From: Bacteroidales bacterium
GTDB lineage: Bacteria; Bacteroidota; Bacteroidia; Bacteroidales; UBA932
Assembly: GCA_017618115.1 (NCBI GenBank)
Contig: JAFZUX010000023.1
Location: 1-46,548, forward strand
DNA: 46,548 nucleotides
Direction of reading: 5' to 3'
The notes under the pieces are model-generated. The model was not told the origin of the DNA, made no database searches, and was given only the letters and a program-made list of their open reading frames with translations. Position 1 is the first letter of the stretch. Every line of letters begins with the position of its first letter. Positions 141-33,767 of the stretch are shown here, piece after piece. The translations under genes and the position numbers were made by a program.

Positions 141-178
141 CGGTGGCGGGCCCTTTTTTGATGACTTTACCCGGGTTG

Positions 179-212
179 TTGTTACAACTTTGGGCAATTA
201 TAACTAAATTTG
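179..212 (+). promoter_or_regulatory. Promoter of first lipoprotein cassette
   Basis: TAAATTTG at 205-212 matches the Bacteroidota -7 consensus TAnnTTTG. A TTG at 179-181, inside a GTTGNTACAAC block, lies 23 bp upstream as a candidate -33 element. The second cassette has the same block, the same -7 box and the same 23-bp spacing at 4578-4611, which supports the call. The predicted transcript would start near 217-220, about 195 nt before the first start codon. Confidence 0.6.
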
Positions 213-216
213 TTGC

Positions 217-412
217 TAAATAGCCCCTCGACGTGAGAATCTTCACTTCAAATATTAGTTTTTCTAAGACCCCTTCTTTTGTTAACGGGGGGGGTACAAT
301 AGTCTAATTATCAAGCAAATATACAGAATTGTCCGCGTGGCTATTATGGCTTACGCGTGCTTGGCTGTGCTCTGTCGTGAACTAAGTGATGTTAACTAAA
401 TAAAAAAACAAT
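217..412 (+). promoter_or_regulatory. Conserved 5' leader RNA, copy 1
   Basis: This untranslated stretch is clearly homologous to 4616-4825, with a 33-nt block identical in both copies (267-299 and 4666-4698). The block contains CCCC, then GTTAAC, then a run of eight G, so a CCCC/GGGG stem can form. Further down, CGCGT and ACGCG can pair around GGCTATTATGGCTT; in copy 2 the second arm is ATGCG, which keeps the pairing through a G-U wobble. The leader is far better conserved than the coding sequences behind it. I cannot tell whether it is a cis regulator, a processed small RNA or recombination homology. Confidence 0.5.
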
Positions 413-559
413 ATGCTTATGGAAATCAAAAAGAATAACAAAGAGCTTTACGAAGCTCCCTCGATACAGATGTTCGAGGTGAAAATAGAAGGCGTCATCT
501 GCGAGAGCGGTGGTGCTGGAGCACAGAACTACAATTGGAACTATCCAGATGAAGAGTAA
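413..559 (+). CDS. Small conserved-motif peptide (48 aa), family A
   Basis: The frame runs from ATG at 413 (a second ATG at 419) to TAA at 557-559 and encodes 48 residues. The core YEAPSIQMFEVKIEGVICES is followed by a Gly/Asn/Tyr-rich tail that ends acidic (PDEE). The second cassette encodes a peptide at 4826-4981 with the same spacing of Y-x-A-P, E-[VI]-K-x-E, [VI]-I-C-x-S. There is no signal peptide and no lipobox before the cysteine. The stop lies 25 bp before the lipoprotein start, so the two are probably co-transcribed. A conserved front half, a Cys-x-Ser and a variable tail would fit a precursor peptide or a small regulator, but no modification enzyme is nearby. The function is unknown. 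Confidence 0.7.
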   Translation: MLMEIKKNNKELYEAPSIQMFEVKIEGVICESGGAGAQNYNWNYPDEE

Positions 560-584
560 CGAACCCATTTAAACGAAGAAAGCA

Positions 585-2222
585 ATGAAACAGACAATTA
601 AATATCTGAGCATAGCCACTCTCGTCACCGTGGGCGCGATGACTATGAGCTGCAATAAAATAGACGAAGGCGCTGAGCCACAACAGGAAGATAACATTGT
701 AACGCTGACAACCACAGTTGGCTTTGATAAAGGCGCAACTACCCGCGCACTGTCCTCTACAGGCGAAAAAACTTTCGCTGCAGGTGACCAGATTGCTGTA
801 ATTTACAAGAACACGAGCAACAATACAAAGAAGGTCGTGGGTGATATTACTTCAGGAGCAGGTACGAGTTCTGCCACGTTCACGGTAACACTCACAAACC
901 CTAAGAAAGATGCCGCTATCCGTTATATATATCCTGCTTCAATGGCGAAAGCTACAGTTGCTACGGATGCTACGATTGACGATGCCGGCACCGTTGACTT
1001 TACAAATCTTGAGAATCAGAATGGAACGCTGGTCTCTCTTGGTAGCAGCTTAGATCTTTGCACCTTTGATGCGGCTACTTGGGGTGGAGAAAACCTTCCT
1101 AGCGGAACTATGACAAACCAGCTAGCCATTCTCGCCATAACGTTAAAGAATGGTTCGTCAATAAATGACGACATCACGGGTATGACCTTCAGCGATGGCA
1201 CGAACAACTATAACGTTACCCGTTCGGCTGCCGATGCCCCAATTTACTTGGCCATTCTGCCAGTAGACTCAAAAAATATCTCTATCACCGCCACAGATGG
1301 AACCAATTACTATACAAAAACGCTGGCAAGCAAGACTTACGCAATGAACAATGGTTATACTGTTACTTGGTTGATGACAGAAGCCGGTCATGCTCTTAAT
1401 GGCCAGTTTACCATCAATGCCGGTGGCGACAAGGTGAAGTTTGCTCAGGGCAACCTGCAGGCGACCTATAACGGCACGTCGTGGAGTTGGGCCTTCGCCG
1501 CAAACCAGTGGGACTATATCGGCGATAACCCTGGTAACACTAGCATCATTAATCCTGGTGAAGTAAACGCCAACAACGTTACCGTTGACCTGTTCGGATG
1601 GGTGGGTGAATCGTGCAACTGGACTGGTGCCGCCATGTATGGTATCAGCAATACGACAAATGCCGGAGGAGGCGCTGTTGATAATTACGGCAATGTTGCA
1701 AAAGAAAAACTGAAATCCGACTGGGGCAACATTATTGGAATTGGCTGGCGCACGCTGACCAAAACCGAATGGGACTATCTCTTCAATACTCGCACGAGTG
1801 GCAGCACCGTTAACTTAAAGTCTGATGCACGCTATACTTATGCTACTATTAATACCGACGAAACTAGCGTGAATGGCATAATCTTGTTCCCAGACGGTGT
1901 GACGATAGCAAATGGTGAAGCTACCAATTGGGGAACAATTAACGCCGTAAGCGCATGGGGCACCAAGTGCACATCTGCTCAGTGGACGGCTCTTGCTGCC
2001 AAAGGTTGTGTTTTCCTACCTGCTGCAGGAGTCAGGGCTGGCAATGCTGTCTACGAATCCGGTACCCACGCGCGTTACATGCAAAAAGGCATTGATGACA
2101 TCTCTCTGCTTGATAACTACGCGTACTACGTGGACTTCAAATCTAATGAATTGCATTTTGGGACCGATTACTATCGGCACTATGGGGGATCTGTACGTTT
2201 GGTTCGCGTTGTTGCGCCATAG
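585..2222 (+). CDS. Fimbrillin/FISUMP-like surface lipoprotein (545 aa)
   Basis: The N-terminus is a lipoprotein signal ending in MSC (Cys23) followed by an acidic linker, so the product is probably anchored to the outer membrane and may be surface exposed. Residues about 38-265 resemble the N-terminal beta-sandwich of Bacteroidales fimbrillin-like proteins (TTTVGFDKG...TRA, GDQIAV, IYPAS). From about 275 a FISUMP or C-type-lectin-like domain follows: KVKFAQGNLQ, WRTLTKTEWDYLF, then GGSVRLVRV near the C-terminus. Such domains often bind ligands; the ligand here is unknown. The gene follows the small peptide at 25 bp and ends just before hairpins at 2231-2251 and 2282-2319. It is not clearly homologous to the lipoprotein of the second cassette beyond the general type. 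Confidence 0.8.
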   Translation: MKQTIKYLSIATLVTVGAMTMSCNKIDEGAEPQQEDNIVTLTTTVGFDKGATTRALSSTGEKTFAAGDQIAVIYKNTSNNTKKVVGDITSGAGTSSATFTVTLTNPKKDAAIRYIYPASMAKATVATDATIDDAGTVDFTNLENQNGTLVSLGSSLDLCTFDAATWGGENLPSGTMTNQLAILAITLKNGSSINDDITGMTFSDGTNNYNVTRSAADAPIYLAILPVDSKNISITATDGTNYYTKTLASKTYAMNNGYTVTWLMTEAGHALNGQFTINAGGDKVKFAQGNLQATYNGTSWSWAFAANQWDYIGDNPGNTSIINPGEVNANNVTVDLFGWVGESCNWTGAAMYGISNTTNAGGGAVDNYGNVAKEKLKSDWGNIIGIGWRTLTKTEWDYLFNTRTSGSTVNLKSDARYTYATINTDETSVNGIILFPDGVTIANGEATNWGTINAVSAWGTKCTSAQWTALAAKGCVFLPAAGVRAGNAVYESGTHARYMQKGIDDISLLDNYAYYVDFKSNELHFGTDYYRHYGGSVRLVRVVAP

Positions 2223-2230
2223 CCGTGGAA

Positions 2231-2319
2231 ATCCCTAATCTTGTCAGGGATGACAGGATTATAACAATAATTGAAGAAGTTGGGTCTCATCCATCGAGGG
2301 TGAGACCCTCTCTTTTTTG
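2231..2319 (+). terminator. Terminator region of first lipoprotein cassette
   Basis: Two hairpins follow the stop codon. ATCCCT (2231-2236) pairs with AGGGAT (2246-2251). GGGTCTCA (2282-2289) pairs with TGAGACCC (2301-2308), is extended inward by TCC/GGG, and is followed by CTCTTTTTTG. The second is a good intrinsic terminator. It is repeated almost exactly after the second cassette (6146-6184), with only the loop differing (ATCGA against ATTGA). Confidence 0.8.
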
Positions 2320-2350
2320 TTAGGGTGAGGGAAACTATCGCGGAGAAAGG
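2281..2350. repeat. Repeat B, copy 1 (terminator plus tail)
   Basis: This repeat consists of the terminator hairpin, the T-run and a tail reading GGTGAGGGAAACTATCGCGG. Copies are at 2713-2748 (tail only), 6146-6212 (full) and 8236-8266 (right arm plus short tail). Here the tail ends 7 bp before the 3' end of the minus-strand antitoxin gene. Confidence 0.85.
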
Positions 2351-2356
2351 GAGAGA

Positions 2357-2671
2357 CTAATAAGTGAGTTCTACGTTTACACCTACGGCTTGTGTAATCA
2401 TCAGGAAAGTAGAGAGTTGCATGTCTGTTTCTCTTTTTTCTAGAAGAGCAATGTATTCTCTCTTTTTGCCAACTTTTTCTGCAAGCTGTTGCTGGGTCAT
2501 ACCGGCCTCTTTCCTTGCATCCTTCAAGATTTCAGCATAATACCAAGCCATAGCTTTGGCATTAAACTCCTTCCTTGAATCAGATCCTCTTTTGCCATAC
2601 TTTGCAGACAGGTAATCTTCTGCTGTCTGCAGTTTCTTAAGTTTAGCGTTGTCTAATATCTTTCTTTTCAT
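2357..2671 (-). CDS. HigA-like XRE-family antitoxin without toxin partner
   Basis: This 104-residue protein has a helical N-terminal part (AEDYLSAKYG) and an XRE helix-turn-helix from about residue 52: EAGMTQQQLAEKVGKKREY, then LSTFLMITQAVGVNVEL. It strongly resembles Bacteroidales antitoxins of HigBA or RelE/HigA type, which normally follow a RelE-fold mRNA-cleaving toxin. No toxin gene fits: upstream in its direction are 83 bp of non-coding DNA and then the end of an AbiEii gene. The start is ATG at 2671, with a TAnnTTTG box only 7 nt away at 2679-2686, so the mRNA should be nearly leaderless. It may be a leftover half of a TA pair or a free-standing regulator. Confidence 0.8.
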   Translation of the reverse strand: MKRKILDNAKLKKLQTAEDYLSAKYGKRGSDSRKEFNAKAMAWYYAEILKDARKEAGMTQQQLAEKVGKKREYIALLEKRETDMQLSTFLMITQAVGVNVELTY

Positions 2672-2678
2672 GATACGG

Positions 2679-2686
2679 CAAAAGTA
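2679..2686 (-). promoter_or_regulatory. -7 box of orphan antitoxin
   Basis: TACTTTTG on the minus strand fits TAnnTTTG and lies exactly 7 nt from the ATG. The same geometry is seen at 4329-4336 and 41047-41054. Confidence 0.5.
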
Positions 2687-2712
2687 ATAAATATATTACA
2701 TACTTAAAAAAG

Positions 2713-2748
2713 TTTGTTGGGGTGAGGGAAACTATCGCGGAGGAAAGG
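2713..2748. repeat. Repeat B, copy 2 (tail only)
   Basis: This copy contains TTTGTTGGGGTGAGGG followed by AAACTATCGCGGAGGAAAGG, without the terminator hairpin. It sits between the orphan antitoxin and the 3' end of the first abiEii gene (7 bp before its stop), which is the position a missing toxin gene would occupy. Confidence 0.85.
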
Positions 2749-2754
2749 TGGTGG

Positions 2755-3717
2755 CTAACCGCCTAACTCTTTGGAGATATAAAACTTGGCGGCAGGGTTC
2801 TCTTCTATCCTTTTTTCCGTGCCGTCATGGAACAAAAGGTGTGGATGATATTCTCCATTCTTGGCTGCTTTCAAATACAGAAGTTCGTTGTCTTTAAAAT
2901 CTAAGAATTGAGAAACGTAAGTAACCGCTTGGGTTGTTATGTCATCTCTATCTACAAATCCATAACCGGTCTTAAGCATTGGAAAAAGATGGAGTTTGAA
3001 CTCTCTGATAGGCTTACTCTTAATGGCTTGTAAGGAGCTGCCTAAATCTATCTCTTTAGATATAGAAATGTAGTATACTAGTGCCTTTCTAATGTTGTTT
3101 GAAGAGTTCTCATCTTGAAACAACTTGTTCTTGGACATCATATATGTGTCAAAGATGTCTCTTGGGGTGTGTCTTTCCAAAAGTGCTTTGAGTTTTGCTC
3201 CAAAGAGTTCATATTCAGACAAGATACGTGTTGTTTGTGCCTTCTCCGTGAATGGGTTTTTAAATTCCTTTATTTCAGTCTCATATATATGACAGCGCTG
3301 TAAACAGTTGATATCTATCTTTATCTTATCTCTGTTACCAACGCTGTTCCAATAGTATAAATCACTCTGATACAGGATGTATCCATGACTATGCTCTTGG
3401 ATGGTATAGTTGAGTTCAGATGCCAAAGTTCTTAACTGTTGAGCGACTTCATTTTTGATAACGAGCATTTTCTCCTTAGGAGAATTCTCTGCAAGATCAA
3501 AATCCAAATCCACACTCAGACGTGGAATATTCTGATAATAAACCATATTGATGGCAGTTCCTCCCTTTAATGCGAGGTTCTTTGAGAGGAACTCATTTTT
3601 ACTTATGTAATCAAGGATATCCATTAATCGGAAGGCTTTCTCTATTGAAGTTATAGGATACCCGGTTTTTTCCATCAATGTCTTAAACGAACTCCTAGAA
3701 TACTCTCTCGTCCCCAT
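2755..3717 (-). CDS. abiEii: AbiEii-family nucleotidyltransferase toxin, system 1 (320 aa)
   Basis: This is a putative type IV toxin of the AbiEii/DUF1814 nucleotidyltransferase family, whose members transfer nucleotides to RNA (tRNA in studied homologues) and arrest growth; some give phage abortive infection. The polymerase-beta-like signature is present: KGGTAIN at 51-57, then RLSVDLDFDL with Asp70/Asp72/Asp74 as metal-binding candidates, and RHTPRDIFDTY downstream. The start overlaps the end of its antitoxin gene by 23 bp, which implies coupled translation. The DNA is AT-rich (18 G+C in the 60 bases 3061-3120). The second AbiE pair at 6199-8014 is from a different subfamily. The activity and cellular target here are inferred. 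Confidence 0.85.
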   Translation of the reverse strand: MGTREYSRSSFKTLMEKTGYPITSIEKAFRLMDILDYISKNEFLSKNLALKGGTAINMVYYQNIPRLSVDLDFDLAENSPKEKMLVIKNEVAQQLRTLASELNYTIQEHSHGYILYQSDLYYWNSVGNRDKIKIDINCLQRCHIYETEIKEFKNPFTEKAQTTRILSEYELFGAKLKALLERHTPRDIFDTYMMSKNKLFQDENSSNNIRKALVYYISISKEIDLGSSLQAIKSKPIREFKLHLFPMLKTGYGFVDRDDITTQAVTYVSQFLDFKDNELLYLKAAKNGEYHPHLLFHDGTEKRIEENPAAKFYISKELGG

Positions 3718-4321
3718 ACCTTGTTCCCTTTGAGATGATGTTCATAATGTCTTTTGGAACAAACAGATTCCAATCTGAATTATACTCAAGCGGTGTGTTT
3801 GAATATAGAATCTTGTTCTTCACTCCTGAACCCTTTATCTTGCAGACATTTAAGAATTTATCTGATATGCTGTTATTACTTTGGAACAAAGATAACAGGT
3901 ATCCTGAACGACTCCATAAAGAGGCATTGTTATATGCCTGCAGGCAGACCATCATTTCTTTTTCTTTTAGTTGACCAGGAGTTATGGCGGATAGTGCATA
4001 GAGCAACTCTTCAAGTCCGCCGGCTAAACCTATGTGCCTTATGCAATCAATAATGGTTTGAGATAATGACGTAACAAGGAAGGGATTGCCTTCGTTATCT
4101 TTCTTTTGGACAAGGTTGTATGTGAATTTAAGGGGATGGTATTCGTATGTTAATCCGGCAATTGTGAATGTGCGGAAGCGGTGGGCTGAATGCATGTAAA
4201 TGGTGTTGAACTGCTGGGTTTGAAGGGCATAATATTGTAACGCTCCGTGGTATGCTATACACCCTCCGCGGATTTTGGCACATCCTGCCGCATATTCGTT
4301 GTAGATAATCTTGTTCTTCAT
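3695..4321 (-). CDS. abiEi: AbiEi-like antitoxin, system 1, short form (208 aa)
   Basis: This is the likely partner of the downstream AbiEii toxin, with a 23-bp overlap. The start of the recognisable domain (GGCIAYHGALQYYAL, from about residue 19) corresponds to the point where, in usual AbiEi proteins, the winged-helix DNA-binding domain has just ended. The N-terminal winged helix therefore seems to be absent. The promoter box at 4329-4336 leaves no room for a longer start. Without that domain the usual autorepression by AbiEi would need another route. Assignment rests on context plus weak family resemblance, so confidence is lower than for the toxin. Confidence 0.65.
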   Translation of the reverse strand: MKNKIIYNEYAAGCAKIRGGCIAYHGALQYYALQTQQFNTIYMHSAHRFRTFTIAGLTYEYHPLKFTYNLVQKKDNEGNPFLVTSLSQTIIDCIRHIGLAGGLEELLYALSAITPGQLKEKEMMVCLQAYNNASLWSRSGYLLSLFQSNNSISDKFLNVCKIKGSGVKNKILYSNTPLEYNSDWNLFVPKDIMNIISKGTRYGDERVF

Positions 4322-4328
4322 GGTTCTG

Positions 4329-4336
4329 CAAATATA
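4329..4336 (-). promoter_or_regulatory. -7 box of AbiE system 1
   Basis: TATATTTG on the minus strand lies 7 nt before the ATG at 4321, so transcription should begin at or within a few bases of the start codon. Partial inverted repeats lie upstream (TTGGTT near 4346 with AACCAA near 4370) and could hold an operator. Confidence 0.6.
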
Positions 4337-4442
4337 AGTTTTTTTTGGTTGATATCTACAAATTGTTAACCAATTAAGCTATTGATATTAAGTTATCTAT
4401 ATGGTTAAAAATTTGTACAAATATACTTTTCTTTCATTTTGG

Positions 4443-4542
4443 GGCTTTTTTATTTGCAAAGAAAGGGGCAAAGAGGCTTACCTCCAAGCATTTGGGTATA
4501 ATGTATCTTTTTTGAGGGTACATTTTACTCTACGGTAAAAAA
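4443..4542. repeat. Repeat C, copy 1, with hairpin
   Basis: This stretch of about 100 bp is nearly identical to 8123-8221; GCAAAGAAAGGGGCAAAGAG and CTTACCTCCAAGC are in both. It contains an imperfect hairpin with arms GGGTATAATGTATC (4494-4507) and GGTACATTTTACTC (4517-4530) and a T-rich loop. Most changes relative to copy 2 keep pairing through G-T wobbles. It lies just upstream (5' side) of AbiE system 1 and before the second leader. No gene is seen in it. Confidence 0.85.
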
Positions 4543-4577
4543 TAAGAGAGGCTTTGAGGATGACTAAACGCGGATAG

Positions 4578-4611
4578 TTGGTACAACGTTGAGCTGTTTT
4601 AATTAAATTTG
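4578..4611 (+). promoter_or_regulatory. Promoter of second lipoprotein cassette
   Basis: TAAATTTG at 4604-4611 has a TTG at 4578-4580 (in GTTGGTACAAC) 23 bp upstream, the same layout as at 179-212. Confidence 0.6.
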
Positions 4612-4615
4612 TTCT

Positions 4616-4825
4616 CACTAAACCCTTTGACGTGAGACTCTTCACTTCAAATATTAATCTGTGTGAGACCCCTTCTTTTGTTAACGGGGGGGGTACAACG
4701 ATTTAATTATCAAACAATTATACGCTATTGTTCGCGTGGCTGTTATGGCTCATGCGTGTGTGGCTGTGCCGTATCGTGAACTATATTATTAACTAAATAA
4801 AAACATCTTTTGGTTATTAAAAGCT
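4616..4825 (+). promoter_or_regulatory. Conserved 5' leader RNA, copy 2
   Basis: This is homologous to 217-412. It includes the identical 33-nt block at 4666-4698 with its run of eight G, the GTGAGA...TTCAC element, and the CGCGTGGCTGTTATGGCT segment. It ends in TTAACTAAATAAAAAC just before the small peptide gene, as in copy 1. Confidence 0.5.
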
Positions 4826-4981
4826 ATGAAAAAACTAAAAAATGAAAATGAAAACCTTGCGCAATATTTAGCGCCTGAGGTTACTGTCTTAGAGATTAAG
4901 ACGGAATCAATTATTTGTACAAGTGATCCTGGAAATCCTGGCGACATACCTGGTGATTTGGGAATCGGTTTCTGGATGTAA
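4826..4981 (+). CDS. Small conserved-motif peptide (51 aa), family A, second copy
   Basis: The frame runs from ATG at 4826 to TAA at 4979-4981. The core YLAPEVTVLEIKTESIICTS aligns without gaps to the peptide at 413-559, and the following tail is Gly/Pro/Asp-rich and ends GFWM. Identities are concentrated in Y-x-A-P, E-[IV]-K-x-E and I-C-x-S, which argues that the peptide is translated and selected. The stop is 28 bp before the lipoprotein gene. No signal peptide is visible. The function is unknown; a precursor peptide, a chaperone-like partner of the lipoprotein or a regulatory ORF are all possible. Confidence 0.7.
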   Translation: MKKLKNENENLAQYLAPEVTVLEIKTESIICTSDPGNPGDIPGDLGIGFWM

Positions 4982-5009
4982 TGTTTAACTGTTAAGAAAT
5001 GAGAAAATT

Positions 5010-6032
5010 ATGAAAAAGTATATTATCCTTATAGCCATCGCTGCTGTTGCAATGGCTTGCAGCAAAACAGAAAATCCGGGTGTTAAAGATTACTCAAACG
5101 TCAAAGTGAATCTTTCCGTTTCTATGCCGGGAACTCTTACCAAAACCAATTTTACACCAATAGATCCGGCTAATCCGATAGGAGGAATGACTGTTACGTG
5201 GGCAGAAAACGATAAACTCACGTTGATTGTTTTTCAGGGAGATAATGCTGATTGGGCAAGCAAATATGTTTATAAAGAAATTTTACTTCCGGCAACTGCT
5301 GAGGGGAAGACAACATTAGATGTTTCTTCTCTCGGAACATCTTTGGATTTAAGTGGTTTTGATGACTCAAAGAATCTGAAATTTGTAGTGGTGATGGGAC
5401 CTTCGTTCAATGATTACTGGAAAGAATTCAACATTTGGAACGGTACTCTATACATGGAGCCAGGTCTCACCATGAAAGAACAAATTAATCACTGTCAAAT
5501 GATTGCGGAAACCGACGTTCAAGAAATACCTTTCCCTGGGGTAGGGAATCCTATTACTCTCAGCGGAAAACTTCATTGGATGAGCTCTGTATTGGCCGTA
5601 CAGTTTGATGTTGATGCAGCAGCAGATATCACATACCCTGCGGGATCATTTTTGATTATGGATTTTACCGGGTCTCAGTATGTAGACAACTATAAGCCAA
5701 TAACTAAACTATCCGGAAGCTATGCTTCCTCAACTTCTCGCAATTTTTCCTTTAGTAGTGCTGGTAAGTTAAGCGACGCTTTGGACGCAAACAAATTTAG
5801 GTATTGGACAATTCCTGCAGATAATATGACGGTTACCCCAGAGCAAAAAATGGGAGGTTCTTCAATATCTTTCCGTAGATGGAAGTCTGGGGAAAGTGAT
5901 ATACACTACACTTCATCAATATCAATAGGTGATATTGTGATTGAGCCAGGTAAGGTTTACGGTATGAAGATAAAAGTAACTGATTCAGATTCAGACGGAA
6001 ATCCTGAATTCACAAAAGTGGTAGTTCCATAA
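5010..6032 (+). CDS. Fimbrillin-like surface lipoprotein (340 aa)
   Basis: The lipoprotein signal ends at AMAC (Cys17) and is followed by SKTEN. The rest looks like a two-part beta-sandwich of the fimbrillin-like/Mfa2-type families: a first half with VTWAENDKLTLIVFQGDNA and a second half starting near residue 180 (ITLSGKLHWMSSVLAVQFDV). It ends EFTKVVVP, a C-terminal strand common in Bacteroidales fimbrillins. It is probably outer-membrane anchored and exposed. It is much shorter than, and clearly different from, the lipoprotein of the first cassette, although both are preceded by near-identical leaders and followed by the same terminator. Confidence 0.75.
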   Translation: MKKYIILIAIAAVAMACSKTENPGVKDYSNVKVNLSVSMPGTLTKTNFTPIDPANPIGGMTVTWAENDKLTLIVFQGDNADWASKYVYKEILLPATAEGKTTLDVSSLGTSLDLSGFDDSKNLKFVVVMGPSFNDYWKEFNIWNGTLYMEPGLTMKEQINHCQMIAETDVQEIPFPGVGNPITLSGKLHWMSSVLAVQFDVDAAADITYPAGSFLIMDFTGSQYVDNYKPITKLSGSYASSTSRNFSFSSAGKLSDALDANKFRYWTIPADNMTVTPEQKMGGSSISFRRWKSGESDIHYTSSISIGDIVIEPGKVYGMKIKVTDSDSDGNPEFTKVVVP

Positions 6033-6145
6033 AGGTTACAGCCGGATTGTTGCAAGAAAAAATCAATGCTTACATTTGCATCACATTAACAGTGCCCGTA
6101 TATGACTTTGTCGCTATACCAGGCACTTAAAAATGGGCTGAAGTC

Positions 6146-6184
6146 GGGTCTCATCCATTGAGGGTGAGACCCTCTCTTTTTTGT
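6146..6184 (+). terminator. Terminator of second lipoprotein cassette
   Basis: GGGTCTCA (6146-6153) pairs with TGAGACCC (6165-6172), followed by CTCTCTTTTTTG. It is near-identical to 2282-2319. Confidence 0.85.
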
Positions 6185-6212
6185 TGGGGTGAGGGAAACT
6201 ATCGGGAGAAAA
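6146..6212. repeat. Repeat B, copy 3 (terminator plus tail)
   Basis: This is a full copy: hairpin, T-run and the tail GTTGGGGTGAGGGAAACTAT. As at the other copies, the tail lies directly beside the 3' end of a minus-strand toxin gene, here that of AbiE system 2. Confidence 0.85.
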
Positions 6213-7281
6213 GAGAATCTACTAAGTTCCAATAAAAGAAGGCTTCCGGCCGGTATTTCTTTAGATTTTTGAGTTTAGGGTCTACGGCAGAAGAGAGGGT
6301 AACTGTAGATAGATTTGTTTGTGGTTTGAAATGCATAACGTCTGTTTTGCCTGCAAGTATAAGTGTCGCTAAATAAGCTGCTTTGGAGGCATTGATGACG
6401 GCTCTGTCATAGTTGTATCGTTCACTGTGAATGAAGTCCCGCACACGTTCTACACCATCTGCAAGTTCTCCATACTGATAAGAATCGTCATAACCCCATG
6501 TGCAGATAATGCGTGAAACATTTATGATATCTTCCAACACATCTTTAACTCCAAGAACTTGTTTTCCCCTGTAAGCCAGTTCGATAGGGACAATCTTGGA
6601 GAAGGTTTTGGATGCAATGGAGATGTCTGTTGTCTGATCAAAAATTGAGGCAATATCAAACAGTTGTTTAATGATTTCCATTGAACAACGTTTATCTTCT
6701 TTGACGTAAGGAATGCCTGTGGTGTTTGGGGCAAAGGCAGTCATCTTATCTCCCAAAAGATCCATTAGACTTGGTACATTAACAAAGACCGGCTGGTTAT
6801 TGTTCTTGAGGAAAGGACTTTCTATTGGTTTCTTTTCCAAGTTGTGGTATTGTACGTTGTCAAAGAGAACATCCAAAAGTATGGTTCCTTCTTCATTGCT
6901 GTTTAATGGAATAGGTCTTGTGTGATACGATACTGAATAATAACATTTTGCGTGAGTCTTTGGAACGTTTGTTCTGGAGATTCTTTCTCCTTGAACAATT
7001 TCTCCGAATCCATAATCTCCTGCAGTCTTTTTCAAAAATGAGATTACATCTGTGCCTGGTTCACAGACAATATCAATGTCTATGGATATTCTTTTTTCAC
7101 TGTTCAAATGAAGCATGAGGGCGGTGCCGCCCTTAAATACAAATGGGCATTCTGAAACGGCTAATGCTTCCAGCAATGAAAAAGCTCTTATGGTTTTCTC
7201 AATCAGTAACGGGTTAGTAAAAGGGTAGCGGTTACGCAACTCCTGAATCCACTCCAAGTCCCTGCTTTCTTTCAATATCAT
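6199..7281 (-). CDS. abiEii: AbiEii-family nucleotidyltransferase toxin, system 2 (360 aa)
   Basis: KGGTALML (50-57) followed by RISIDIDIV with Asp68/Asp70 is the nucleotidyltransferase core of the AbiEii/DUF1814 family. Apart from these motifs and general length, it shares little with the toxin at 2755-3717, so the two are separate acquisitions rather than a recent duplication. Its start overlaps the end of the antitoxin gene by 50 bp, which suggests translational coupling. Family members are growth-arresting toxins of type IV TA systems; the target of this one is not known. Confidence 0.85.
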   Translation of the reverse strand: MILKESRDLEWIQELRNRYPFTNPLLIEKTIRAFSLLEALAVSECPFVFKGGTALMLHLNSEKRISIDIDIVCEPGTDVISFLKKTAGDYGFGEIVQGERISRTNVPKTHAKCYYSVSYHTRPIPLNSNEEGTILLDVLFDNVQYHNLEKKPIESPFLKNNNQPVFVNVPSLMDLLGDKMTAFAPNTTGIPYVKEDKRCSMEIIKQLFDIASIFDQTTDISIASKTFSKIVPIELAYRGKQVLGVKDVLEDIINVSRIICTWGYDDSYQYGELADGVERVRDFIHSERYNYDRAVINASKAAYLATLILAGKTDVMHFKPQTNLSTVTLSSAVDPKLKNLKKYRPEAFFYWNLVDSLFSR

Positions 7282-8014
7282 AATTCACTGAGTTTAAAAT
7301 GTTTTCCAGCTTTTTTCTTCTTCCACGGCGGGCGGCATATCTGTATAAAGCCTTGAGATTCACTTTGTAGGAGGACAGAATGTTTCCCAGGATGTTGTAG
7401 AACTCTGCTCCTTGTGCAAAAGCAAAATCTACATCTTGGGAAATGTCTACAATAATCTTCTCCAAGGTAGGCAGTTTTATGCCTCCGAAATCAATCAATG
7501 GGGCTTGTGTGATTAACGGTTTTACTATGATGGTTTTGTAGCCCGAAACATAATGGGCATAGTCTTTTGCGGAGGGGTTATAGATTACTCTGTGTGATGT
7601 ACGTTTCTCTTGTAAGAGGTTGAAGACGGGCTCCAAAGCAACTTTCTCCACCTCAACAATTATAGTCTGAAGATTTGGGATGTGGAGCATGAAGGGGACT
7701 ATTATTTGGGGATCCCAAACACAGATTTTTGTGTATGGAAATTCTGTTTTCAAGAGATTGTTAATCTCTATGATTTCATCATCTGGTAAGGGAATGAAAT
7801 GATGTTTGGTGGATGTGTTTAATGAGTATGTTCCCCAAGCCTCTTTTGATAGTTCTCCGCTCTTTAACATCTGGTTTAATGACAAGCTGACCAAAGCACC
7901 ACTTCCCTTTTTTGAAAGGTTCTTATTACGCATCCAAGAGAGGAGGGCTTTTCTAGAGAAAATCCTATTTGGTTGCGAGTTGGCAAATTGTCTTATGGTC
8001 TCTTTCGTTGTCAT
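7232..8014 (-). CDS. abiEi: AbiEi-like antitoxin, system 2 (260 aa)
   Basis: The start is taken at ATG 8014 (MTTKETIRQFANSQPNRIF) because a promoter box lies at 8025-8032; a longer frame to 8149 would begin upstream of that promoter. Residues about 1-65 look like a winged helix (FSRKALLSWMRNKNLSKKG, then LNQMLKSGELSKEAWGTYSL). The remainder (residues 70-260) resembles the DUF6577-type antitoxin partner found with AbiEii toxins. The C-terminus is basic (YRYAARRGRRKKLENIL). Unlike system 1, the DNA-binding part is present, so autorepression through the inverted repeat at 8051-8084 is plausible. Confidence 0.7.
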   Translation of the reverse strand: MTTKETIRQFANSQPNRIFSRKALLSWMRNKNLSKKGSGALVSLSLNQMLKSGELSKEAWGTYSLNTSTKHHFIPLPDDEIIEINNLLKTEFPYTKICVWDPQIIVPFMLHIPNLQTIIVEVEKVALEPVFNLLQEKRTSHRVIYNPSAKDYAHYVSGYKTIIVKPLITQAPLIDFGGIKLPTLEKIIVDISQDVDFAFAQGAEFYNILGNILSSYKVNLKALYRYAARRGRRKKLENILNSVNYDIERKQGLGVDSGVA

Positions 8015-8024
8015 ATTTATGGAG

Positions 8025-8084
8025 CAAAAGTATATAATATGTGTCAATATTCCAAAATAATGACAAAAATTATAATATTTTGGA
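8025..8084 (-). promoter_or_regulatory. Promoter and candidate operator of AbiE system 2
   Basis: TACTTTTG (8025-8032, minus strand) fits TAnnTTTG and is 10 nt from the ATG. Upstream, TCCAAAATA (8051-8059) and TATTTTGGA (8076-8084) form a perfect 9-bp inverted repeat with a 16-nt spacer. Studied AbiEi proteins repress their own operon by binding inverted repeats near the promoter, so this is the best operator candidate. Confidence 0.5.
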
Positions 8085-8122
8085 GTGGGAACTGTTTTTA
8101 ATCTCACCCGTATGCCCGCGTA

Positions 8123-8221
8123 GGCTTTTATTTGCAAAGAAAGGGGCAAAGAGGCTTACCTCCAAGCCATTGGGTATAATGTATCTTTTTTCTGGATACA
8201 TTTTACCCTATGGCAAAAAAT
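8123..8221. repeat. Repeat C, copy 2, with strong hairpin
   Basis: This is the partner of 4443-4542. Here the hairpin is nearly perfect: GGGTATAATGTATC (8172-8185) and GATACATTTTACCC (8195-8208), 13 of 14 pairs, with loop TTTTTTCTG. Like copy 1, it follows the 5' end of an AbiE pair. Confidence 0.85.
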
Positions 8222-8235
8222 ATTATGCCTTTGTC

Positions 8236-8266
8236 GGTGAGACCCTCTCTTTTTTGTTGGGGTGAG
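8236..8266. repeat. Repeat B, copy 4 (remnant)
   Basis: Only the right arm (TGAGACCC), the T-run and GTTGGGGTGAG remain. The left arm of the hairpin is missing and repeat C abuts it. This suggests a deletion or recombination that removed a lipoprotein cassette. Confidence 0.75.
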
Positions 8267-8600
8267 AGTAATTATCAAACGCGAGTATTTCTACGCCATC
8301 CAGCACGGTGGGTACATCAATCCTAAGACCGGTAGGTTGGTTAAAGGGGATGACACCAAAAATGACACCAAAAAGTTAACTGAAAGACAGCGAGTTATCT
8401 ATGAATTATTGCCTTTTGGTGTCATAGATGATGACACCAAAAATGAGGCATTTACATCCAAGAGAATTGATGCACGGCTGAAGGTTTCAGAAAGTACGAT
8501 AAAGCGCGACATAAAAGTGCTTCAGGAGCTTGGATTCGTGGAGCATATAGGCCCGTCGAATGGCGGTTATTGGCGAAAAGTGGATACGGGGTTGGGGTAA
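8262..8600 (+). pseudogene. Helix-turn-helix fragment (112 aa), probably truncated
   Basis: The frame from a GTG at 8262 to TAA at 8598 encodes a C-terminal winged helix. The pattern LTERQRVIYELLPFG, KRIDARLKVSESTIKRDIK, LGFVEHIGPSNGGYWRKV is the ending of many Bacteroidales AlbA_2-type ATP-binding/DNA-binding proteins. No N-terminal domain or promoter precedes it; the upstream side is the repeat-B remnant and the frame is closed by a TGA at 8238. A short in-frame repeat (DDTKNDTK and DDTKNEA) is present. It is most likely the 3' end of a gene cut by rearrangement; expression as a small repressor is possible. Confidence 0.5.
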
Positions 8601-8609
8601 GTGCGAGGG

Positions 8610-9878
8610 TTAGAAGTAGAGGGAGTAGGGGGAGTAGGAGTGGGTGCTTTGGTGGATTGCCTTGACTTTGGCGAGCATTGCCATGAATTTTGGGTTGGTG
8701 TGAAGGGAGGCAACTACTGCTGAGGCGAGAATTCTGCGGGCCTGAATTAGGTCTGTTGGGTCCTTTGATTTGTTGCCTAGATAGTTGCCATAATCAAAGC
8801 CGCGCTGCAGGATATTGTCCTGATTTCTAGGCTCTATCTCCGCTCCTATCAGTGCAAAAGCCCAGTTGATATCCGGTTGAATAAAGGTGTAATTACTGCG
8901 TTGCAATTCTTCACTTACCATAGAGAACAACTTTTCCTCCACAGTTTTATTCTTCCTTCCCAAAGAAGGGTATCTATTGATATCTCCGTCTCGTTTAATG
9001 AGGAGGGTGTCTAAGATTTTTCCATCGTGAGGAAGAGAGAAGGCGTTAGATTTTGCCTTTTTGTGCCTGGTGGTAGTTGGACTGTTCTGGTTGGTAGTGA
9101 GGCGGTTGTACTCCTCCTGGGCGGCTTCGAGGTGGGCTATGAAACGGGGGCTGTTGTGCATTGCGGCAACTGCTGCGGAGGCAACGTTGTAGCCGGCATA
9201 GACATCGCTCTGCCAGTGGGCGCCCACAATTACGCGGCTCTCTCCATACTGGTAACCCCTTCTGAGAATGGTATCTTGGAGCTTCGGAGCAACCTCAACA
9301 AGCGCGAGTGCAGTAGCCCAACCGAGGGCGGTATGGCCGGAAGGGTAGGAGCCGTTGTTGCGCAGTTCGTCATAGTCAAACTCACCCCAAACCTTCTCGC
9401 CAGCACGGGCAAACGGGCGGACGCGCATATAGGTTTCCTTGGCGTGGGCAGTGCTCTGATGGGCAGTTTCTCCAACGTAAAGCATAAAACGATAGATAGC
9501 CGGAGTTTTCTGAGAATCAATCTTTAAGCCGAGTACCTCAGAGTAGATGGTACACATTCTTACAATGCCGTAAAGGGACTCAATGCTGGCCTGCTTTCCG
9601 CGCGGAGTAGGGCGGACGGTCTTGCCCCAGAGCCAACGGTTGTAATCCTCTTTGAAGATCTCAGAGGTTGTATCCGGCGGAGCGGGAAGATAGACAACGG
9701 CATCCGGAAGTTTATTCTTTTGCAGATAGAGAGAATCAAACGGGAGTTTCCATTGCTCTATGATTGCTGTTCTCACCTTTTCAATGATGTTGGCTCTCTT
9801 TGGTGCACAGCCTGTTGCAGCTGTGAAGAGGATTACAGCAATGGCAATTAAGGAAAGTATTCTGTCTATCTTTTTCAT
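8610..9878 (-). CDS. PAP2-type acid phosphatase lipoprotein with degenerate second half (422 aa)
   Basis: The start is at ATG 9878, giving a lipoprotein signal with Cys24 (FTAATGC). The class A acid phosphatase/PAP2 signature is complete: KETYMRVRP (147-155), PSGH (179-182), and SRVIVGAHWQSD with His221 and Asp225. It probably removes phosphate from small or lipid phosphates in the periplasm. Residues about 338-412 (INWAFALIGAEIEP, NILQRGFDYG, RRILASAVVASLHTNPKFMAML) align with 186-260 (GWATALALVEVAP, TILRRGYQYG, YNVASAAVAAMHNSPRFIAHL) but lack the catalytic histidine. The protein therefore carries a second, dead copy of the C-terminal half of the fold. It starts 4 bp after the gene at 9883-10656 and shares its operon. 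Confidence 0.85.
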   Translation of the reverse strand: MKKIDRILSLIAIAVILFTAATGCAPKRANIIEKVRTAIIEQWKLPFDSLYLQKNKLPDAVVYLPAPPDTTSEIFKEDYNRWLWGKTVRPTPRGKQASIESLYGIVRMCTIYSEVLGLKIDSQKTPAIYRFMLYVGETAHQSTAHAKETYMRVRPFARAGEKVWGEFDYDELRNNGSYPSGHTALGWATALALVEVAPKLQDTILRRGYQYGESRVIVGAHWQSDVYAGYNVASAAVAAMHNSPRFIAHLEAAQEEYNRLTTNQNSPTTTRHKKAKSNAFSLPHDGKILDTLLIKRDGDINRYPSLGRKNKTVEEKLFSMVSEELQRSNYTFIQPDINWAFALIGAEIEPRNQDNILQRGFDYGNYLGNKSKDPTDLIQARRILASAVVASLHTNPKFMAMLAKVKAIHQSTHSYSPYSLYF

Positions 9879-9882
9879 GTAT

Positions 9883-10656
9883 CTATTCTTTGTTGCTCTT
9901 GAAGGCGTTTTTGAAGGCGCGCCAGCCGTCCTTTGCACCCTTTGCGGCTTTCTTTGCGGTCCTCTTCACCCACTCTCCGGAATCCTCCAGAGCTTCTCCC
10001 GTCTTGTCTGCCACATCTCTGGATTTGCCTGCTACATTGTCTCTTACGTTCTTGCCGCCCTGCTTTATCTTGTCTGTTGTATTGGATACTTTCTGCCCGA
10101 ATCCTTCTACTGCATCCCCGATGGATTCCATTGTGGCCTCTGTTGCGGTCTCTCTGAAGTTGAAGGTTGCCACTGCCACACTGTTGTCTACCGTGGTGAG
10201 TGTGATGTGGTTACGGTAGTTGTCTCTCTCTCCTCCCGATAGGGAACCCCAGTAGCAGGAGATGTCTCCCTCTTCATCTTTGAGGTTGTCTACTGCAGGG
10301 ATGTCATAGTTGTCTATGATCCAGTCTTTTAGAACGTCATACTTAAGTTTGGTGGCCTCCGGAGTATCTTCTGCGGTGCTGAGGATTACCTGCTTAATGG
10401 TCTGGTTATCTGTGCCTTTGCCCGGAACGATTGCAATGGTAGATGGCAGGCCGCTGACCTTACCGCTCATCATAATCTTCTCCTTGTCTCTGGAGGTTTC
10501 TTTCCAACCCTTTCTGGTTAAGCGTTTTACGAAGTACTCCTCGTTGTTGTTGAGAGATACTCCGTTAAAGCTGAGCCTTTTGATGCTTCTCTGTCCGGTT
10601 GCCGGAAGAGCAATCAGTAGGGCAACAAGCGCTATGATGACGTTCTTAGTTTTCAT
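9883..10656 (-). CDS. Secreted protein of unknown function with amphipathic Lys/Asp-rich tail (257 aa)
   Basis: ATG 10656 gives a signal peptide (MKTKNVIIALVALLIALPATGQ). Residues about 25-170 form a mixed alpha/beta region (LSFNGVSLNNNEEYFVKRLTRKGW) that I do not recognise beyond a general likeness to Bacteroidales exported proteins. The last 80 residues are charged, Gly-spotted repeats (GFGQKVSNTTDKIKQGGKNV, then KSRDVADKTGEALEDSGEWV) resembling LEA-like or apolipoprotein-like amphipathic helices that lie on membranes. It lies 4 bp upstream of the PAP2 phosphatase gene, so a joint envelope role is likely. The function is not known. Confidence 0.65.
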   Translation of the reverse strand: MKTKNVIIALVALLIALPATGQRSIKRLSFNGVSLNNNEEYFVKRLTRKGWKETSRDKEKIMMSGKVSGLPSTIAIVPGKGTDNQTIKQVILSTAEDTPEATKLKYDVLKDWIIDNYDIPAVDNLKDEEGDISCYWGSLSGGERDNYRNHITLTTVDNSVAVATFNFRETATEATMESIGDAVEGFGQKVSNTTDKIKQGGKNVRDNVAGKSRDVADKTGEALEDSGEWVKRTAKKAAKGAKDGWRAFKNAFKSNKE

Positions 10657-31106: not shown

Positions 31107-31136
31107 TGTCTGAGAAATAAATAAAAAGTGAGGAAC

Positions 31137-32486
31137 ATGGAATATCCCGAGCGCATATTCAAACGCAAGATATACGAGAAACTCCAGGAATGGAAGCAGA
31201 CAACGGACGGCACCACGGCCCTTCTTATCAAAGGCGCCCGCCGCGTAGGCAAGTCCACCATAGCAGAGGAATTCGCCAAGAACGAGTACACCTCCTACAT
31301 CAAGGTCGACTTTGCCGATGCCCCCGATGAAGTCTGGGAAGCCGTCGCCCATATCAACGACCGCGACCGCTTCTTCCTCCAGCTGCAGTTCATCTATAAC
31401 GTCCGCCTGGAAGAGCGCAAGTCCGTCATCATCTTCGACGAGATCCAGAAAGCCCCCAAGGTCCGCGAGGCCATCAAGTATCTGGTTAAAGACCACCGGT
31501 ATGACTACATCGAGACGGGCTCCCTCCTCTCCATCAAGAAGAACACCCAGGGCATCGTTATCCCAAGTGAGGAAACCCGCATCGAGATGTACCCGATGGA
31601 CTATGAGGAATTCCGCTGGGCAATGGGCGATACCGCCACCGTCCCGCTCATGAAGGACACCTTCGAAAAGCGTCAAGGCGTCGGAGATGCCACCTGCCGC
31701 AAACTGATGCGGGATTTCCGCCTCTACATGCTGGTCGGCGGCATGCCCCAGGCCGTGAACGCCTACCTTGATACGAAGAATCTGAGCGCTGTGGATGCCA
31801 AGAAGCGGGAGATTATCGAGCTCTATGCCGATGATTTCCGCAAACTCGATCCCACCGGCCGTGCCACGCGCCTCTTCATGGCGGCCCCGTCCCAGCTCAC
31901 CGGCAACGCCTCCCGCTATCAGGTTACCAGCGTACTCGGTCGCAGCCAGGACGAGGATGAGATGAACGAACTCATCCAGGACATGGAAGATAGCATGGCC
32001 GTCAATTTCTGCTATCACGCCAACGACCCGTCCGTAGGATTATCGCAGCACAAGAACATCGGGCAGTACAAGATGTACGTCGGAGACACCGGCCTCTTCA
32101 TCACCATGGCCTTCTGGGACAACGCCGTCACGGAGAACATCATCTACCAGAAACTCCTCAGCGACAAACTGGTCACCGACCTCGGTTATGTCTATGAAAA
32201 TGTCGTAGCTCAGATACTCCGTTCCCGTGGAGAAAAGCTATTCTATCACACCTGGCCCACCCCCAGTGGCAAGCACAACTACGAGATTGACTTCCTCCTC
32301 TCCCGCGGCTTCAAAATCTGCCCGATTGAGGTCAAATCCTCCGGCTACAAAACCCATAAATCCATGGACGAGTTCTGCAAGAAGTTCTCGCAACATGTGG
32401 GATTAAGATATCTCGTTTACACCAAAGACTCCCGCAAAGATGGGGAATTGACAATGATACCTGTCTATCATTGTATGTTTATCTAG
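31137..32486 (+). CDS. AAA ATPase with DUF4143 domain, probably acquired (449 aa)
   Basis: ATG 31137 is preferred over GTG 31128 because GAGGA lies a few bases before it. The N-terminal AAA_14 domain has Walker A GARRVGKS (33-40) and Walker B SVIIFDEIQKAP. A DUF4143 domain follows with a nuclease-like core (HNYEIDFLLSRG, then CPIEVKSSGYK) of the PD-(D/E)xK type. Such proteins are widespread, often in many copies per genome, and their function is poorly known. The gene is markedly richer in G+C than its neighbours (39 of 60 bases at 31201-31260 against 28 of 60 at 32701-32760), which suggests horizontal transfer. Confidence 0.85.
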   Translation: MEYPERIFKRKIYEKLQEWKQTTDGTTALLIKGARRVGKSTIAEEFAKNEYTSYIKVDFADAPDEVWEAVAHINDRDRFFLQLQFIYNVRLEERKSVIIFDEIQKAPKVREAIKYLVKDHRYDYIETGSLLSIKKNTQGIVIPSEETRIEMYPMDYEEFRWAMGDTATVPLMKDTFEKRQGVGDATCRKLMRDFRLYMLVGGMPQAVNAYLDTKNLSAVDAKKREIIELYADDFRKLDPTGRATRLFMAAPSQLTGNASRYQVTSVLGRSQDEDEMNELIQDMEDSMAVNFCYHANDPSVGLSQHKNIGQYKMYVGDTGLFITMAFWDNAVTENIIYQKLLSDKLVTDLGYVYENVVAQILRSRGEKLFYHTWPTPSGKHNYEIDFLLSRGFKICPIEVKSSGYKTHKSMDEFCKKFSQHVGLRYLVYTKDSRKDGELTMIPVYHCMFI

Positions 32487-32507
32487 CGACAAATTTGTAA
32501 CAAATAA

Positions 32508-33767
32508 ATGAATAAAGAATCTTTATTATTTACCTTCAGGCAGACAAAATCCCCGGTAGCGTATTGCATATTGAGTATAGGAATGGGAACAAGGGATGAG
32601 AATCCAAAGTATAACGGATTGGCTCATCTGACGGAGCACATGCTCTTTAAAGGAACTCCTTTTCACTCATCCGTAAGTATTTCATCCATTTTGGAAAAGG
32701 TGGGCGGAGACCTTAACGCCTTTACTACAAAGGAGCGTATAGTGCTCTATTCCACTACTTTGAAAGAGGATGTAAAGAAGGCTGTCTCCCTCATCTTTGA
32801 ACTTGCCTTCCACTCCACATTCCCTAAGGAGGAACTCAAAAAGGAGAAGAGCGTTGTCTACGATGAGATTATAACCTACCAGGATTCCCCATCGGAACTT
32901 ATTTTTGATGTATTTGAGGCAGAGCTCTTTAAGGGGACTCCGCTGGGTTACTCCATCCTGGGAGAGAAGAAAAGTCTGGAACATATAGATTCCAAAATCC
33001 TCTCAGATAATCTTGCAAAGTTCTTTGTGCCCGGCAATATGACCTTCTCCCTCAGCGGAAACTTTGATGAGAAGGAGATCTACTCTCTTGTGGAGAAGGA
33101 ACTTAAGAAGTGGCGCCCAAATGCCTCTCTATCACAGAAATACGGAGAGGTCCCCATAACAAGCCGTCCGTTTGTAAACAAACTCAAGAGCGGTATTCCA
33201 TTTAAGAAGGGCAAGAAGTTTGACATCAGTACTGATAAGAAACTCAAGCAGGCACATTGTGTTTTGGGATGCACCGCATACCCTTATTATGAGAGAAAGA
33301 AGCGCGCCTCCTTATCTCTGATAACCAACATTTTAGGAGGACCTGCCTCCAACTCGAGACTCAACCTTACCCTCAGAGAAAAGCACGCGCTTGTATACCA
33401 TATTGATGCAAGCTGCATCTCTTACAAAGACACAGGATTGTTCTGTATTTACTTTGGATGTGACAAGAAGTATCTCGATAAATGTCTTGCCCTTATTCGC
33501 AAGGAGGTTTCAAAATTCCTGGATGAACCGCTGAGCCCAAGAGCCCTGGCTGCTGCCAAGAAGCAGATGATAGGGCAGCTCTCTATTGCAAGCGATAACG
33601 CAGAATCTCAGTGCCTTACAGCAGGCAAATCTCTGCTGCTCACCGGAAACGTAACCTCTTTTGAAAAGATAAGAGAGGAGATTGAAGCTGTTACCTCAGA
33701 GTCTGTACAGGAAGTTGCAAAGGAGATACTCTCCTGGGACAGAATGAGCCGCCTTGTTTTCTACTAA
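32508..33767 (+). CDS. M16-family zinc metallopeptidase (419 aa)
   Basis: The inverted zinc motif HLTEH (His40, Glu43, His44) and the third ligand Glu120, 76 residues after His44, mark an active M16 processing-peptidase subunit. The second, inactive-type half follows (KQAHCVLGCTAYPY, then LREKHALVYHIDASC). No signal peptide is evident, so it may act in the cytoplasm, or be exported without a classical signal. It lies 21 bp after the ATPase gene and 31 bp before the methyltransferase gene, with which it probably forms an operon. The natural substrate is unknown. Confidence 0.88.
   Translation: MNKESLLFTFRQTKSPVAYCILSIGMGTRDENPKYNGLAHLTEHMLFKGTPFHSSVSISSILEKVGGDLNAFTTKERIVLYSTTLKEDVKKAVSLIFELAFHSTFPKEELKKEKSVVYDEIITYQDSPSELIFDVFEAELFKGTPLGYSILGEKKSLEHIDSKILSDNLAKFFVPGNMTFSLSGNFDEKEIYSLVEKELKKWRPNASLSQKYGEVPITSRPFVNKLKSGIPFKKGKKFDISTDKKLKQAHCVLGCTAYPYYERKKRASLSLITNILGGPASNSRLNLTLREKHALVYHIDASCISYKDTGLFCIYFGCDKKYLDKCLALIRKEVSKFLDEPLSPRALAAAKKQMIGQLSIASDNAESQCLTAGKSLLLTGNVTSFEKIREEIEAVTSESVQEVAKEILSWDRMSRLVFY

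Follow-up and report, generated by a model that had tools for sequence, protein, structure and literature searches.

Small defence cassettes with shared, clade-specific ends in Bacteroidales, and a locus that may be one of their exchange sites

Chromosomal defence islands and hotspots are exchanged by way of their flanking homology. Clusters of attC sites lacking integrases (CALINs) by definition need no integrase, and repetitive extragenic palindromic (REP) and Correia-type repeats are palindromic elements. Toxin-antitoxin (TA) cassettes are common in integrons (PMC8618304). The movement of single defence modules, as opposed to whole islands, between strains is poorly understood. Here we describe a locus of Bacteroidales in which AbiE TA pairs, an orphan antitoxin-like gene and lipoprotein genes alternate with repeats named A, B and C (Table 1). 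The stretch analysed, hereafter the window, is the entire contig C11 (46,548 bases) of the metagenome-assembled genome (MAG) G000, which has 1.85 Mb in 26 contigs and is 89% complete; contig names such as C11, C12, C17, C21 and C24 are distinct from repeat C. Sequence comparison makes it somewhat probable that the locus is an exchange hotspot for defence cassettes, driven by homologous recombination that uses flanking genes and intergenic repeats present in dispersed copies.

The locus resembles defence islands and hotspots in having fixed chromosomal sites, variable defence cargo and, near two sites, tracts of high identity, and differs from them in its single modules, which are bounded on both sides by clade-specific repeats and are found at several sites within one genome. 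With integron arrays and CALINs it shares small TA or defence cassettes arrayed between repeated sites, with a site on each side, whereas genes stand here on both strands and neither an integron integrase over the cut-off (in five genomes) nor an attC core pair (in 14 sites) was found. Repeat C is intergenic, partly palindromic, about 97 nt long and present in several copies per genome, as REP and Correia-type repeats are; unlike them, it stands in fixed orientation 5' of genes and is paired with a second element, the tail, around cassettes (no search for REP-associated tyrosine transposases, RAYT, or other transposases was made). What is unusual here is the single module bearing shared, clade-specific ends, an exchange hotspot for defence genes being itself of a known kind. 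Among the literature matches listed we recognised no description of such cassettes, which is no proof of their absence in print.

The tail, which is the 3' end of repeat B, and repeat C were searched as a 21-mer and a 23-mer, respectively, with up to 3 mismatches, in 39 congeneric genomes. We obtained 29 tail and 21 C matches, both in the same five genomes and none in the other 34, and the reversed controls gave five (tail) and no (C) matches. One of the five, G015, has two tail matches and one C match; C and one tail lie on its contig C8 (locus L131), and the remaining tail has 3 mismatches. Since 11,705 of 12,001 nt compared around the tail match of this contig are 100.0% identical to contig C3 of G016, C8 was treated as probably misbinned, leaving four carrier species (G000, G016, G021 and G035). 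Their gltX genes are 88-90% identical to that of G000, and those of five other members of the genus are 74.6-77.5% identical to it over 1110-1145 of 1728 nt. Two of the relatives that hold the motif are named as Bacteroidales MAGs of water buffalo reticulum and yak rumen. Many tail-like matches sit inside open reading frames (ORFs) and are not cassette ends.

Seven modules carry C at the 5' end and the tail at the 3' end, i.e., AbiE1, AbiE2, AbiE3, a PDC-S01 ATPase and HipBA of G000, HipBA of G021 and AbiE3 of G035; the orphan antitoxin of G000 has the tail alone. Altogether, C stands 5' of eight of the nine modules counted, a count that leaves aside the modules of the D array (see below), those of locus L087, the helix-turn-helix (HTH) genes of locus L094, a Fic gene on C24 (tail at its 5' side) and a remnant in G016. 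No C or tail match was found near a related ATPase in the window (31128-32486). Modules were identified with PADLOC models, Pfam and NCBIfam.

As the original prediction had proposed, cargo appears to be gained and exchanged at repeat-bounded sites, because the same cargo occurs at different sites, different cargo at the same site, and empty as well as filled sites are found. HipBA stands beside a PAP2 gene in G021 and on contig C24 in G000, and the two blocks are 88% (87.9%) identical from the terminator arm before the tail to the inside of C, and the displayed part of the alignment contains no match in the flanks. The neighbours of AbiE3 differ as well: in G035 it follows the 3' end of a small secreted-protein-like gene, and in G000 it is flanked by a TonB-receptor-like gene and a lipoprotein gene (names by eye). 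Its block matches over 1857 nt at 85.8%, beginning shortly before the tail and extending to where the C hairpin ends. Conversely, the PAP2 site holds two AbiE pairs, the orphan antitoxin and an HTH fragment in G000, HipBA in G021, and in G016 a tail with the last codons of an antitoxin, of which a longer relative exists in L087; in G035 the contig ends within PAP2. Since G016 retains just those last codons, modules at this site can be lost. The C24 locus has one tail in G016, and in G000 three tails and two cassettes in the order tail-PDC-S01 ATPase-C-tail-HipBA-C-tail. Beyond the C24 tail, G016 carries AbiE4 and C between two genes that in G000 are direct neighbours at an empty site. The TA genes of the window also have a GC content of 0.387-0.399, compared with 0.471 to the right of position 8600, which we count in favour of exchange.

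Direct repeats of at least 36 nt flank cassettes, measuring 49 nt at 88% identity around AbiE2 and at least 55 nt in G035, and the two C-to-tail sites at HipBA of G000 share 151 identical positions in 205 columns. Loss of a cassette by recombination between such repeats would thus be allowed. Next to the C24 tail, the identity of G000 and G016 in 300-nt steps is 98, 100, 98 and 96%, then 91, 90, 82 and 91%. Near an array on C17 it rises from 88% in the first step to 98-100% for about 2.1 kb and then falls to 93-96%, with a further block at 93-98%; the core of the dcw cluster averages 84.3% in the same pair. These long tracts suggest, without proving it, recent homologous exchange near two sites. 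For the Fic gene beside the C24 tail (L028 9717-10766; L165 2395-3501), we observed 96-100% in 300-nt steps, the dcw average of the same two species being 84%.

The shared ends, the cargo at different sites, the empty/filled polymorphism and the high-identity tracts near two sites are what the comparison shows, and exchange by homologous recombination is the reading that we prefer. On this reading, the window locus would be an occupied copy of a site at which small defence cassettes are exchanged. Each cassette would consist of a TA or defence operon of predicted function, apparently with its own promoter (by eye), with C at its 5' end and the tail beside a terminator-like hairpin at its 3' end. 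The homology would come from the dispersed C and tail copies and from conserved neighbour genes; cassettes may be lost by recombination between direct tails, and gain or replacement would use the same homologies, also between co-living species. We infer that RecA-type homologous recombination would be the agent, acting on DNA from other cells. Units of leader, peptide and lipoprotein with common leaders would form another type of cargo at these sites. That the TA modules stabilise the locus, also proposed originally, is a speculation. Recognisable ends and paired empty and filled sites in close species would make the exchange rate and its RecA dependence directly measurable, and the cassette ends offer a simple handle for mining rumen metagenomes for more defence cassettes.

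Several observations weigh against this interpretation. All genomes are MAGs and the loci were located via their motifs; since they were picked for holding a motif, the cassette counts are a description and not a rate. AbiE4 of G016 has C alone, with no tail; beyond the C of the AbiE3 block there is a further 39-nt terminator match at a different spacing; C also stands 5' of core genes at three fixed sites with no tail match near; and L094 combines a tail, a C-like match and HTH genes in an order at odds with the cassette layout. Tails are short for RecA. Background identity is uneven too, the dcw cluster ranging from 72 to 98% in 300-nt steps, and the PAP2 flank, at 86-94%, shows no special tract. 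Flanking homology, originally put forward as the route, has support in the tracts near two sites and is a presumed route. Lastly, the moved cassettes (87.9 and 85.8%) resemble each other no more closely than core genes do (85.1 and 84.8%); the moves may thus be old, or ancestral copies may have been lost differentially.

The homologous blocks stop at the tail and at C in both cassettes compared across sites, which would also be expected of a dedicated mobile-cassette system, with C and tail as the recognition sites of a trans-acting enzyme (a tyrosine recombinase, an HUH/REP transposase or another) that inserts circles or single strands, as an integron analogue. The gene-site-gene-site order with duplicated sites and the inverted repeat within C point the same way, as does a second array on C17 of G000, C3 of G016 and C4 of G021, where an element D, composed of a hairpin and the same tail and sharply bounded on the right, lies between defence-like genes. 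These are AbiLi-like in the three genomes (AbiLii-like partners were scanned in two), Lamassu-like and Fic in G021, and TIR in G016. Ten copies of D were aligned, several of them degenerate, and because D ends in the same tail, we think that the tail is a commoner boundary than C. Of six C or C-to-tail stretches folded as single-stranded DNA, two had a z of about -4 and four lay between -1.03 and 0.34, so structure as a recognised feature is unproven. The lack of an integron integrase over the cut-off and of attC core pairs in the genomes and sites searched (see below) counts against a dedicated enzyme, as does the tailless AbiE4, whose insertion, compared with the empty G000 site, shows no clear target duplication (one case), and no recombinase gene was recognised by eye in the cassette-side ORFs (no family search beyond TIGR02249 was made). 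We regard such a system as a possible but rather unlikely explanation. Its specific form, a clade-specific, integrase-less cassette system of rumen Bacteroidales whose enzyme would recognise C and tail and move single defence modules among chromosomal sites, a functional counterpart of the integron on different sites, seems doubtful.

An integron proper was rejected. The integron integrase model TIGR02249 gave no match over its cut-off in the five genomes (MAGs 73-89% complete), with sub-threshold matches such as those seen in all 14 control genomes. The attC core pair RYYYAAC...GTTRRRY, a consensus applied without a covariance model, was present in none of 14 sites, mononucleotide shuffles yielding 0-3 of 300 per site.

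The occurrence of C 5' of core genes at three fixed sites, and of tails after other genes such as the feoB-like gene (by eye) of G016, agrees with the idea that the repeats have only a regulatory or terminator role and were spread by gene conversion; PAP2 and C24 would then be permissive hotspots that defence genes reach by unrelated routes. Outside the clade, PAP2 is followed by a DUF2442/HTH_3 protein in G022 and by a TA-like pair with an HTH partner (by eye) in G030, with no C or tail printed at either, and by other ORFs in G012; in G015 and G027, the ORF maps pass from PAP2 straight to the next conserved gene. This explanation predicts neither moved blocks that end at tail and C nor the position of C 5' of eight of nine modules, and we judge it unlikely. 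An old local duplication without exchange, to which the duplication of A, B and C within 8.5 kb might point, was rejected as very improbable, since the cargo at PAP2 differs among the three readable clade species and the same cargo occurs at other sites, so that repeats confined to the locus and a gene order fixed in all relatives are not what we find.

Table 1. Features of the window locus and its borders, in order of position.
Feature	Position	Strand	Evidence
Transposase 3' end, insertion sequence at contig edge	1..141	+	bases 3-101 encode end of transposase, rve_2 9.6e-11
Leader A1, 8-nt poly-G tract 287-294	153..384	+	repeat comparison
48-aa peptide (…EGVICESG…)	413..559	+	no match in Pfam (to 0.01) or NCBIfam (to 1)
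Lipoprotein LP1, 545 aa	585..2222	+	relative at same locus of G016
Repeat B1, hairpin terminator-like stretch and tail GGAAACTATCGCGGAG	2276..2352	+	repeat comparison
Orphan HTH_3 antitoxin-like gene	2357..2671	-	family search
Tail-only copy, 3' end of AbiE cassette 1	2713..2748	+	repeat comparison
AbiEii-1 toxin	2755..3717	-	PF08843 4e-23; PADLOC 5e-77
AbiEi-1 antitoxin	3695..4321	-	PADLOC 3e-52, model positions 57-248
Repeat C1, partly palindromic, 5' of AbiE cassette 1	4448..4544	-	repeat comparison
Leader A2, 8-nt poly-G tract 4686-4693	4552..4783	+	repeat comparison
51-aa peptide	4826..4981	+	ORF
Lipoprotein LP2, 340 aa	5010..6032	+	71% nt match with leader at another G016 locus
Repeat B2, terminator-like stretch and tail	6140..6216	+	repeat comparison
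AbiEii-2 toxin	6199..7281	-	PF08843 4e-18; PADLOC 8e-117
AbiEi-2 antitoxin, also DUF6577	7232..8014	-	PADLOC 9e-63
Repeat C2, 5' of AbiE cassette 2	8126..8222	-	repeat comparison
Partial B copy; pairs with 6155-6203 as 49-nt direct repeat (88%) around AbiE cassette 2	8228..8276	+	
Short HTH_11 protein gene	8262..8600	+	family search
PAP2-type phosphatase, conserved right flank of site	8610..9938	-	family search

All parts of the locus named in the original prediction are present in the order it listed. Its leaders and repeats B and C had been called near-identical; the copies of B are 90% and those of C 92% identical, and leader A, at 79% ungapped, is less alike than claimed. The TA genes end within about 10 bp of a tail, as had been stated (8 nt for the orphan antitoxin and 9 nt for AbiEii-1), AbiEii-2 ending inside B2, and C does stand at the 5' side of both AbiE pairs, starting 127 and 112 nt 5' of the AbiEi starts (the ATG at 8014 being our choice). 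Both pairs show, by PADLOC and Pfam, the AbiEii nucleotidyltransferase adjoining AbiEi that characterises AbiE type IV TA systems; they differ from these in that AbiEi-1 lacks the N-terminal part, i.e., the first 56 positions, of its best PADLOC model. No partner ORF of at least 50 aa lies beside the orphan antitoxin on the same strand. The HTH_11 ORF is plausibly a cut gene or fragment.

Within G000, leader A has two matches (E up to 0.01) and the B core three (up to 3 mismatches), all at the locus, and repeat C has 13 (E up to 1), of which eight reach 1e-5 or below, on contigs C11, C12, C21 and C24. The exact patterns for C, the leader and D had no match in a collection of viral contigs, and the single viral tail match falls within coding sequence, which reads GNYRGG there. 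The window and contig C12 share their first 141 bases (141/141 nt). As these encode a transposase end, an insertion sequence, presumably of the IS3 type, borders the locus on its left at the edge of the contig. The longest exact direct repeat within 142-8600 is 42 nt, well under those 141 nt, and mis-joining or another assembly artefact at the repeats is thus unlikely.

Related to the cassettes is locus L087 (JAFYYN010000191.1, labelled Lachnospiraceae), which carries two tails, genes for an ATPase-like and an antitoxin-like protein and a lipoprotein gene 74% identical in nucleotides to one in G000, and is probably a misbinned Bacteroidales contig. The exact 11-mer CTATCGCGGAG, the tail core, is found in 72 (G016), 27 (G000), 21 (G021) and 17 (G035) copies, the reversed pattern occurring once in each; the other 35 genomes have 0-12 copies, and 15 of the 39 have none. 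It accounts for 72 of the 116 matches to CTATYGCNGAR in G016, and many of its copies lie within ORFs, often in the frame that reads TIAE (by eye). This over-representation may be uptake-sequence-like or a codon-context effect.

The signal peptides of both lipoproteins end in a lipobox-like motif (MSC and AMAC, by eye). Neither protein had a Pfam or NCBIfam match over the cut-off (best Pfam E 0.08 and 0.13) or a match in the PDB, and the predicted structures, with a mean predicted local distance difference test score of 33 (LP2 alone) and 30 (LP1, two sequences), were not used. The original view of the lipoproteins as variable cargo finds partial support: the LP2 unit of leader, peptide and lipoprotein has a counterpart at another G016 locus (L025; 71% identity over 1464 nt), while the relative of LP1 lies at the same PAP2 locus in G016, with a leader 81% identical. 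Among the 39 genomes, leader A occurs in G000, in G016 and once, partially, in G021; a known RNA family was rejected for it, as no match was found, and a model search of 67 sources gave seven matches. Their poly-G tracts differ in length between copies (7-10 nt in the window and in loci L023, L024, L025 and L026), with 8 and 8 in G000, 10, 9 and 7 in G016, and 7 and 8 in G021, so that these leaders are possibly phase-variable 5' regions. A second variable spot (window 31128-32508; L024; L026) adjoins an M16-like peptidase gene (by eye) and holds an AAA_14-like ATPase in G000, a leader, a lipoprotein and an ATPase-like ORF in G016, and a leader-peptide-lipoprotein unit in G021.

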